Below are positions 60,846-62,933 of a DNA stretch of 64,000 nucleotides, piece after piece. The first letter of the stretch is position 1, and every line of letters begins with the position of its first letter. The stretch lies in contig JAQGHF010000002.1 of NCBI GenBank assembly GCA_028288995.1, positions 62,001 through 126,000 on the forward strand. The letters are read 5' to 3'. The DNA comes from Candidatus Saccharimonadota bacterium. Lineage in GTDB: Bacteria > Patescibacteriota > Saccharimonadia > Saccharimonadales > Saccharimonadaceae. The notes beneath the pieces are model-generated. The model was not told the DNA's origin, made no database searches, and saw only the letters and a program-made list of their open reading frames with translations. The position numbers and the translations under genes were made by a program.

Positions 60846-60862
60846 TTTAAAATCTTGTTACC

Positions 60863-60900
60863 AAATCAAAAAGCAGACCAGCCGATCTGCTTTTTGATTT
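60863..60900. terminator. Bidirectional terminator
   Basis: Perfect 15-bp stem AAATCAAAAAGCAGA / TCTGCTTTTTGATTT around an 8-nt loop (60878-60885). It terminates the unknown gene on the plus strand and tRNA-Leu(UAG) on the minus strand; its last base overlaps the tRNA CCA end. Confidence 0.93.
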
Positions 60901-60984
60901 GGTGCGCGCGAAAGGACTTGAACCTTCACGCCCGAAAGCACTAGCTCCTAAGGCTAGCGTGTCTACCAATTCCACCACGCGCGC
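60900..60984 (-). tRNA. tRNA-Leu (anticodon UAG)
   Basis: 85 nt including an encoded CCA. The acceptor stem GCGCGCG / CGCGCGC, class II form with a long variable arm, T-loop GGTTCAAGTCC and anticodon stem CTAGC / GCTAG around loop CTTAGGA (anticodon TAG) are all visible on the minus strand. Confidence 0.95.
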
Positions 60985-61000
60985 ATAAATTGTTTGCAAC

Positions 61001-61093
61001 GCTCGCGTGTCTACTCATATCTTAGACCACCACGTGCGCATATATTTAGTACGCTAGCGTGTCTACTCATAATCGAGTCCACCACTTGCGCAT
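61001..61093 (-). repeat. Two degenerate copies of the tRNA-Leu 5' half in its own leader
   Basis: Two 41-bp units (61001-61041 and 61053-61093), about 52 bp apart, repeat the 5' half of the adjoining tRNA-Leu(UAG) (60953-60986). All three begin, on the minus strand, with ATGCGC, continue G-TGGTGG and end in GTAGACACGC-AGC. Both copies carry the same 7-nt enlargement of the D-loop region and differ from each other at about ten positions. Neither can form a full tRNA. They lie between the promoter and the mature tRNA, so they form most of its 5' leader. Confidence 0.85.
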
Positions 61094-61101
61094 TACAGAA
61101 G

Positions 61102-61130
61102 ATTATAACAGAGATGAGATTGTTTGTCAC
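61102..61130 (-). promoter_or_regulatory. Promoter of tRNA-Leu(UAG) leader
   Basis: On the minus strand: -35 GTGACA (61125-61130), 17-bp spacer, -10 TATAAT (61102-61107). Predicted start near 61095, directly before the first repeat copy, giving a leader of about 110 nt. Confidence 0.75.
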
Positions 61131-61196: not shown

Positions 61197-62795
61197 ATGA
61201 ATAAAATTGCAGTGTATCTGAATGAGCATCTATTGGGTGAAGTCACTAGTTCAAAAGCGATGCGTCGACGTTTTAGTCGCGATGGAAGCGTACTAACGAT
61301 TACCCCTGAAATTATTGCATTCCCACGTATTACGAATGACATTCGCAAGGTTGCTCGTTTCTCATGGCAACTTGCAGAAAAAGGTCACCCACTTGGACTC
61401 ACGATTCGTGGTATGGGAAGTGATACAACTGGCGCTGCAATTGGCAAGGGTATGATTCTCAGTACATCTGCCCACCTCAACAATATCCTTACACTTTTGA
61501 CGAAAGACCGCCTCGTTCAAGTACAGCCTGGTGTGACGTTCGAAGCTTTGAATAATGCGTTGAAGTGGCAAGGACTTGCACTCCCAAATTCACCAAAGAA
61601 TGAACGATATGGGACAATCGGTGGTGCCATTGCAACGAATGCACTTGGTGACAAAGGCGAAGTCAGCGGTGCGATTGAAAAGCTTGAAATCGTTCTTGCA
61701 AACGGTGATTTGATTGAAACCGGACGTATTGGTAAACATGATCTTAACAAGAAGCTCGGTCTTCAGACGTTTGAGGGTGAGATCTATCGCAAGATCGAAG
61801 GACTTCTTGAAGATAATGATGAAATCATAAAACAGCTTGCAGCTGACCGTACTCGTGACAATATTGGCTACAAGAGCCTTGCGCTCGTCAAAGAGAAGGA
61901 CGGTTCATTTGATTTAACGCCATTATTCGTAGGAAGCCAGGGAACGCTTGGTATCATTTCTGAAATTGTCCTAAAGACGGAGTTCTATAAAGAGCAAACT
62001 ATTGCCGTTGCTGTTGTTCAGGATACCGGTATGGCTCGTGATATTACTGATCGTTTGATTGAGCTGAGCCCGTCAGTCCTGCGAACTATTGACGGTGAGT
62101 TATTCCGTCGTGCAGCAGTGCTTGGTGCACAGGCAAGCTTGCTCGGATCCGTCGAAGCGATCGGGACTGTTATTTACGTAGAATTTAACGATCCTAGTGA
62201 TCGTGCGCAGCTTGGAAAGCTCAAGAAAATGCGTAAACTTCTCAATAAGTTAAGTGTTGGGATGGTTGACTCATCTGACCACCAGATTGATGAGTTTGAG
62301 GCAGTGCTTGAAATTGGTGAATCGCTCCGTCGTGCAGGAAATGACGACGAGATTGCATTGCCGATTATTGATGGGGCATTTGTTCCTGCGGGACGACGCG
62401 AAGAGTTTACGGAAGCATTAACGGAACTCACGACGAAGCATCACATTGCAGTGCCACTTGCAACGAATGTGCTGACGGGAACTATCGATGCGTATCCGGT
62501 TCTGAAGCTTGATGCAATTAGCGACAAGCAAAAACTCTTCCGGTTGATTAGTGACTACGCGGAGCTTGTGACTAAAACTGACGGTGCCTTCGTGAGTGAC
62601 GGGAGCGAAGGTCGTCTAAAGGCGAATGCTGCTTGGGCAACCATTACAGAAGCTGAAGCCCATCTCTACGAACAGCTTCGTGCGATTTTCGACCCATTCG
62701 GTACAATGAACCCTGATGTGAAGCAGAAGAATGACATCCGTAGTCTCGTTGCGGCACTTCGAACATCGTTCGATGGATCTGATTTCGTTGCTTAA
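61197..62795 (+). CDS. FAD-binding oxidoreductase (GlcD/lactate dehydrogenase-like)
   Basis: 532 residues of the vanillyl-alcohol oxidase/GlcD flavoprotein family. The PCMH-type FAD-binding domain (about 35-220) shows LTIRGMGSDTTGAA, VQVQPGVTFEALN and the GTIGGAIATNALG loop; the C-terminal substrate cap runs to about 510 and ends in FDPFGTMNPDVK. Candidate substrates are lactate, glycolate or other 2-hydroxy acids. No 4Fe-4S partner is adjacent. GGACGGACGGGG precedes the ATG. Confidence 0.88.
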   Translation: MNKIAVYLNEHLLGEVTSSKAMRRRFSRDGSVLTITPEIIAFPRITNDIRKVARFSWQLAEKGHPLGLTIRGMGSDTTGAAIGKGMILSTSAHLNNILTLLTKDRLVQVQPGVTFEALNNALKWQGLALPNSPKNERYGTIGGAIATNALGDKGEVSGAIEKLEIVLANGDLIETGRIGKHDLNKKLGLQTFEGEIYRKIEGLLEDNDEIIKQLAADRTRDNIGYKSLALVKEKDGSFDLTPLFVGSQGTLGIISEIVLKTEFYKEQTIAVAVVQDTGMARDITDRLIELSPSVLRTIDGELFRRAAVLGAQASLLGSVEAIGTVIYVEFNDPSDRAQLGKLKKMRKLLNKLSVGMVDSSDHQIDEFEAVLEIGESLRRAGNDDEIALPIIDGAFVPAGRREEFTEALTELTTKHHIAVPLATNVLTGTIDAYPVLKLDAISDKQKLFRLISDYAELVTKTDGAFVSDGSEGRLKANAAWATITEAEAHLYEQLRAIFDPFGTMNPDVKQKNDIRSLVAALRTSFDGSDFVA

Positions 62796-62800
62796 TCTGG

Positions 62801-62836
62801 TATAATTTGTCATGCGTATCCGCGCTGGTGCGGATA
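62801..62836 (+). promoter_or_regulatory. tRNA-Leu(CAG) -10 box and leader hairpin
   Basis: TATAAT at 62801-62806, then a perfect 7-bp hairpin TATCCGC-gctggt-GCGGATA (62817-62836), ending 10 nt before the mature tRNA. There is no T run, so it is a leader structure rather than a terminator, probably near the RNase P cleavage site. Confidence 0.6.
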
Positions 62837-62846
62837 ACAAAGATAT

Positions 62847-62933
62847 GCGCGCGTGGCGGAATTGGTAGACGCGCTAGCTTCAGGTGCTAGTGTCAGCAAT
62901 GACGTGGAGGTTCAAGTCCTCTCGCGCGCACCA
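62847..62933 (+). tRNA. tRNA-Leu (anticodon CAG)
   Basis: 87 nt including an encoded CCA. Acceptor stem GCGCGCG / CGCGCGC, D-arm GGAATTGGTAGAC, anticodon loop TTCAGGT (anticodon CAG) on stem CTAGC / GCTAG, long variable arm and T-loop GGTTCAAGTCC. The 5' half is nearly identical to that of tRNA-Leu(UAG). Confidence 0.96.

Follow-up and report, generated by a model that had tools for sequence, protein, structure and literature searches.

Leaders that copy the 5' half of their own tRNA: a putative structured pre-tRNA element in Saccharimonadales

Bacterial tRNA genes are viewed as simple transcription units whose short leaders are discarded by RNase P. The tRNA-Leu(UAG) gene of the window, the whole 64,000-nt stretch of DNA analyzed here, raises the question of why a leader should repeat the 5' half of the tRNA that it precedes. 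A sequence-only reading had seen the acceptor 5' strand and the D-arm of the tRNA repeated in two 41-nt copies between promoter and tRNA, each with a 7-nt enlargement of the D-loop. Both copies were confirmed (61091-61051 and 61039-60999), and the segment between G13 and GUAGA is indeed 12 nt long in each, compared to 5 nt in the tRNA. The promoter had also been assigned correctly, and the predicted start, which had been set at the edge of copy 1, falls about 3-6 nt before it. The features of the locus are as follows.

61102..61130, minus strand: sigma-70-type promoter GTGACA-17-TATAAT, 11/12 matches, extended -10 with TG
61051..61091, minus strand: copy 1 of the tRNA 5' half, with acceptor 5' strand GCGCAAG, D-stem GUG/CAC, enlarged D-loop and antisense strand GCGU
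61067..61078, minus strand: enlarged D-loop segment of copy 1, ACTCGATTATGA, local hairpin ACUC/GAGU
61051..61060, minus strand: antisense hairpin of copy 1, ACGCUAGCGU, in which the D-stem 3' strand precedes its complement
60999..61039, minus strand: copy 2 of the tRNA 5' half, with acceptor GCGCACG, D-stem GUG/CAC, D-loop TCTAAGATATGA and antisense strand GCGU
61015..61026, minus strand: enlarged D-loop segment of copy 2, local hairpin GUCUA/UAGAC
60985..60998, minus strand: A/T-rich linker from copy 2 to the mature tRNA 5' end, expected RNase P site
60900..60984, minus strand: tRNA-Leu(UAG) with encoded CCA
60860..60903, minus strand: perfect 18-bp inverted repeat, likely an intrinsic terminator, beginning within the CCA end of tRNA-Leu(UAG)

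The copies (43 nt each if the preceding AT is counted) are 84% alike, are spaced 52 nt from start to start, and have a 17-nt core in common with each other and with tRNA-Leu(UAG) itself; copy 1 begins 10 nt from the end of the promoter. Alignment of the first 32 nt of the tRNA to its own leader gave z = 8.5 against shuffled leaders. Among the other 38 tRNAs of the genome only tRNA-Ile exceeded 2.1 in this score, because a whole tRNA-Ala precedes its gene; a copy-bearing leader is found at only one of the 39 tRNAs, tRNA-Leu(UAG). Tandem Repeats Finder made no call for the two-copy array since the copies are too diverged. Copy 1 is predicted to fold as one imperfect hairpin (fold z = -2.80) and copy 2 has a similar predicted layout (fold z = -1.60). 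The two D-loop hairpins differ in their 5' strands and share the 3' sequence GAGUAGAC; base 6 forms an A-U pair in one copy and a C-G pair in the other. The units of the window are of a short form that consists of acceptor copy, D-stem copy, D-loop insert and antisense strand, with no second hairpin, in a two-copy and perhaps decaying array. The locus belongs to the genus of Candidatus Microsaccharimonas, its closest relative being L096.

Upstream of the promoter lies a 532-amino acid gene (61197-62795, plus strand) with the conserved sequence GSQGTLGIISE, which resembles FAD-linked oxidases. It is flanked by two divergently placed tRNA-Leu genes, an order kept across many Saccharimonadia. The second of these (CAG, 62847-62933) has a leader (62815-62846, plus strand) in which TATCCGC-gctggt-GCGGATA, a perfect 7-bp hairpin, takes the place of the tRNA-copy unit seen in congeners; this hairpin may be a remodelled remnant.

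Random, non-conserved sequence at this position in relatives would have spoken against the sequence-only reading. This is not what we found, as copies recur in many genera (80 loci of named genomes, fetched via the oxidase gene between tRNA-Leu(UAG) and tRNA-Leu(CAG)). A core-anchored search returned 80 units at about 70 of 207 tRNA-Leu genes, with all five anticodons represented, and units also precede Ser(GCU), Phe and one Thr-like gene (L266, partly masked). The copied part is always the 5' half, roughly the first third, of the unit's own downstream tRNA, and the bearers are mostly leucine tRNA genes. In 16 congeners, one to three copies each were found before tRNA-Leu UAG, CAG, CAA and UAA, and an all-tRNA census of one genome (G012) placed units at these four as well as at Ser(GCU) and Phe. 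The complete genome of strain TM7i (CP075337.1) carries a unit before tRNA-Leu(UAG) (locus L114).

The 14-nt insert motif TGCGTGAAACGCRA had 17 matches in 295 genomes of the order: 13 in tRNA leaders inside the copied 5' half (Leu, Ser, Phe) and four in coding sequence. Another pattern search gave one match of 18 outside tRNA leaders. With a covariance model of the D-arm-like core, matches were obtained in at least 18 of 295 genomes of the order Saccharimonadales and, class-wide, in at least 34 of 393 genomes, all within that order; these counts are lower bounds because the filters were strict. In a phylum-wide sample of 287 genomes, matches were again confined to the order, and every inspected match with a tRNA in reach lay just 5' of that tRNA. 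As far as tested, the family thus appears limited to Saccharimonadales, an order of very small parasitic bacteria (Saccharibacteria). Units are present at a minority of loci (28 of 88 for UAG, 27 of 71 for CAG) and are therefore not essential.

The 5' part of a unit copies nucleotides 1-13 of the following tRNA. Its acceptor copy (nt 1-7) is identical to the tRNA in 44 of the 80 core-anchored units, and mismatches, at 15/80 for nt 1, drop to 2/80 by nt 12. The D-stem copy, GUG/CAC or GCG/CGC, forms all three pairs in 72 of the 80. The D-loop hairpin is common across tRNA types and reads CUGCGU-GAA-ACGCAAAU.AU..GUAGAC, the typical insert being CUGCGU-GAA-ACGCAAAUNAUNN before GUAGAC; variants include UGCGU/ACGCA, UACGU/ACGUA, UGUG/CACA, UUGCUAU/AUAGCA, UUGCUUC/GAAGCA and GCUGC/GCAGC, and the inserts are shortened in the window's genus. 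An antisense hairpin, made by the four bases downstream of GUAGAC and the complementary bases that come next, occurs in 44 of 80 units (6.8 expected). Its antisense strand is complementary to the D-stem 3'/anticodon-stem 5' strand. It fits the anticodon stem of its own tRNA better than those of others that share the D-stem in 47 cases and worse in 14 (permutation 0/2000), with the limit that antisense and sense are not always separable because several anticodon-stem sequences (CTAG, CATG) are palindromic. Antisense pairing with the real D-arm can be long: 16 nt in L150, 14 nt in L171, and 15 nt in the Ser loci L287 and L288. Long forms continue with a second hairpin, N-GUC-CGARAU-GAC-N', followed by UAAACU and GUACNUU; in its stem, GCC/GGC and ACC/GGU occur as replacements.

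Two further candidates for these segments were rejected. A leader peptide that would open with ATG where the copy starts and end at a stop in the D-loop keeps neither its reading lengths nor its residues, and a putative internal promoter in UAAACU has no -35 element at a fitting distance.

Predicted promoters place the units inside the transcript, as expected of a structured cis-acting leader RNA. A -10-like box precedes the first copy at 77% of 70 copy-bearing loci, mostly 9-14 nt away, and stands directly before the tRNA at 7% of those loci compared to 64% of copy-free loci. The window promoter is kept at the orthologous tRNA in three relatives (G001, G014, G015), even where the copies are missing. 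Orthologous loci with and without a unit have a common promoter and differ by the unit, placed exactly at nt 1 of the tRNA. The promoter lies ahead of the first copy, and the units are therefore leader RNA inserted behind an unchanged promoter. RNase P RNA was found in nine and RnpA in eight of ten genomes tested, and both the RNA and the protein gene are present in the window genome; ordinary 5' processing is therefore expected, and absence of RNase P was ruled out as an explanation.

Compensatory changes, which the sequence-only reading had suggested seeking in relatives, occur in both hairpins. The acceptor copy has not changed in ways that keep it paired with the tRNA 3' strand. Cells with changes on both sides number 10 in the D-loop hairpin plus D-stem, compared to 3.6 after shuffling, and 11 in the second hairpin, compared to 3.6, the latter being a score that none of 500 shuffles reached, although in both tests some slid alignments (+2 slide) score nearly as well. 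These hairpins are conserved secondary structure with compensatory changes, as a structured cis-acting leader RNA would have. RNAalifold returned only six pairs on the raw alignment of long forms because linker length varies too much; shorter blocks aligned separately worked. In the acceptor copy, 62 of 83 changes break pairing with the tRNA 3' strand, and the D-arm core is retained in five units whose acceptor parts are unrelated (L318, L319, L323, L326, L331). The acceptor copy would thus seem to drift neutrally, as a passenger, and D-stem, D-loop hairpin, antisense hairpin and second hairpin appear to behave as structure.

Other roles for the acceptor copy and the fold were considered and set aside. 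The acceptor copy pairs with its unit's own linker no better than with other linkers (0.56), and its changes are neutral with respect to self-folding (percentiles 0.49 and 0.57). The stability of single hairpins was rejected as the main signal, the mean z being only -1.07.

We propose, with a probability of roughly 0.5, that the unit is an undescribed cis-acting structured pre-tRNA leader that is kept tRNA-like by recombination and has a putative function. It would act in cis on the nascent pre-tRNA until RNase P removes the leader. The D-stem 3' strand, in the copy or in the real tRNA, could have two alternative partners, the other strand of the D-stem and the antisense strand. The leader may thereby keep the precursor in an alternative fold and govern the speed or amount of tRNA maturation. 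The acceptor copy would be a passenger, kept tRNA-like by recombination between copy and tRNA, and the same recombination would also yield tandem copies and clean losses. A more specific proposal, which we hold only tentatively, is a hitherto undescribed class of bacterial RNA switch in which sense copy, antisense strand and real 5' half would form alternative folds and a tRNA-like D-arm in the leader would gate maturation of the copied tRNA, in several amino-acid families of one order.

The main rival is that the unit is a selfish or hitchhiking hairpin repeat, which would spread among tRNA genes by recombination or a transposition-like process and copy the local 5' half; unequal exchange would expand and contract the array, tolerated as RNase P cuts the leader off. 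Its patchy distribution fits both this view and a cis-acting leader. Units sit exactly between leader and tRNA nt 1 at some CAA and UAG loci of G014, G015 and G000 and are missing at others, and the Phe-tRNA unit is present in two of ten congeners with clean absence in the sisters. Identical tandem units occur at three loci (three in L133, two each in L256 and L323). Inserts are also concerted within genomes: similarity is 0.65 among different tRNA-Leu genes of one genome compared to 0.47 for the same isoacceptor in other genomes, and 20 of 23 matched comparisons were positive. An insert pattern had first been used to fetch part of these within-genome pairs, namely the CAA genes of G009 and G012, and the unbiased all-tRNA census confirmed those of G012. 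Tandem identity, clean absence and within-genome likeness point either to a shared trans factor or to recombination in cis between unit and tRNA combined with exchange among tRNA loci. The neutral drift of the acceptor copy likewise suits a hitchhiking repeat. Against it, no copies were found away from tRNA leaders and no autonomous partner was found, alignable long forms are kept at orthologous loci across several families, and the hairpins covary in the RNA sense. RNA-sense covariation, order-wide age and strict confinement to leaders favor a putative role in the transcript over a hitchhiking repeat, which we regard as rather unlikely.

Several other arrangements were seen in leaders and spacers. 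At L163 (tRNA-Val CAC) and at L150, L171 and L173 (tRNA-Leu UAG), the leader carries the tRNA 5' half first as a direct and then as an inverted copy, a layout as expected from fold-back template switching. In L269 (tRNA-Met), 28 nt of the 5' half recur 51 nt upstream as a plain copy with no D-loop insert, possibly a young duplication. The leader of L232 (tRNA-Glu CUC, G012) contains a hairpin, GGTCTCATCTC-tttt-GAGATGcAGACC, whose 5' arm opens with the first nine bases of the tRNA, with no copy of the D-arm. In three congeners only (L035, L049, L070), the spacer between tRNA-Val(UAC) and tRNA-Leu(GAG) contains a roughly 100-bp imperfect hairpin, conserved in its inner parts GGCTTCGCGCC and GGGCTGCAGARGCAC, which looks like another leader or spacer element.

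It is improbable that the units are functionless relics of local duplication or template switching at a tRNA gene. Plain and inverted copies of 5' halves do exist (Met L269, Val L163, Leu L150), direct-inverted-direct layouts arise from fold-back replication errors, and the acceptor copy decays, all of which a relic would explain. However, one insert, CUGCGUGAAACGCAAAU, is common to the leaders of Leu, Ser, Phe and Thr genes from different genera, which excludes independent local slippage as the source, and the structure covaries. Such a relic, which the sequence-only reading had listed, is disfavored because D-loop insert, second hairpin and antisense hairpin are conserved and covarying.

The sequence-only reading also suggested that the copies and the real 5' half may compete for the acceptor 3' strand, which is physically possible by predicted folding but shows no sign of selection. 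In the predicted ensemble, 30 of 68 loci have more than 30% of the tRNA 3' acceptor strand on the leader and a native stem under 0.3. Predicted capture of this strand was 0.48 compared to 0.18 with shuffled leaders, as a result of the identity of copy and tRNA in sequence. Native tRNA folding was not clearly lowered in these predictions (0.43 with units, 0.55 with shuffled leaders, 0.47-0.58 with copy-free upstream sequence). In the predicted fold of the window precursor, leader capture is weak, and the native stem, at 0.88, is hardly disturbed. A decoy 5' half selected to compete for the acceptor 3' strand, for which the exact acceptor copies and the predicted capture speak, is very improbable, since acceptor-copy changes preserve neither 3'-strand nor within-unit pairing, the core outlasts unrelated acceptor parts, and the window copies contain A-C mismatches.

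To our knowledge, no described kind of pre-tRNA leader copies the 5' half of its own tRNA and carries a conserved D-loop hairpin. A search of the open-access literature (subscription papers being outside its scope) found no description of such an element, and a study of CPR genomes that describes diverged RNase P RNAs and tRNA introns reports no tRNA-copy leader (PMC8172020). With a conserved, covarying leader element of this kind ahead of Leu, Ser, Phe and Thr-type genes, tRNA supply in these reduced, host-dependent bacteria would be controlled, or parasitised, via pre-tRNA folding. The units also matter for annotation because leaders that bear them look like broken tRNA genes.

Four known systems invite comparison. 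Integration scars at tRNA genes (attL/attR remnants) likewise leave a piece of the gene duplicated alongside, and integration had been named as a possible source of the copies. In the units, however, the 5' half is repeated one to three times at a spacing of about 50-110 nt with a conserved insert, only 10-80 nt of non-coding linker separates copy from tRNA, and neither an integrase nor a remnant of an element was found. REP/BIME sequences are also short hairpin units, sometimes in tandem, and the GTAG before the hairpin resembles REP; unlike them, the units are confined to tRNA leaders in one orientation and are not dispersed, the matches outside leaders being 1/18 and 4/17, these four coding. 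T-box leaders are structured 5' leaders that relate to tRNA, but they precede amino-acid genes, read a whole tRNA via specifier and antiterminator, and match Rfam, whereas the units precede tRNA genes and have no anticodon pairing element and no Rfam match. With Rfam 15, the T-box model matched neither the window nor seven loci; in those loci only the tRNA itself was matched (E up to 1), and in the window only the tRNA and a sub-threshold mascRNA match overlying it. The fourth system is the rtT RNA of the E. coli tyrT operon, where tandem partial repeats of the tRNA 3' end lie downstream of the gene in the same transcript. Partial tRNA copies in tandem beside their own tRNA gene, within one transcript, are the common trait. 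The tyrT copies are of the 3' end and lie downstream, whereas the Saccharimonadales units copy the 5' half (nt 1-13 and the D-arm 3' strand), lie upstream, carry a conserved D-loop hairpin and occur at many tRNA genes. The novelty of the units would rest on this structural combination of an own-tRNA 5'-half copy with a conserved D-loop hairpin, and their function is putative.
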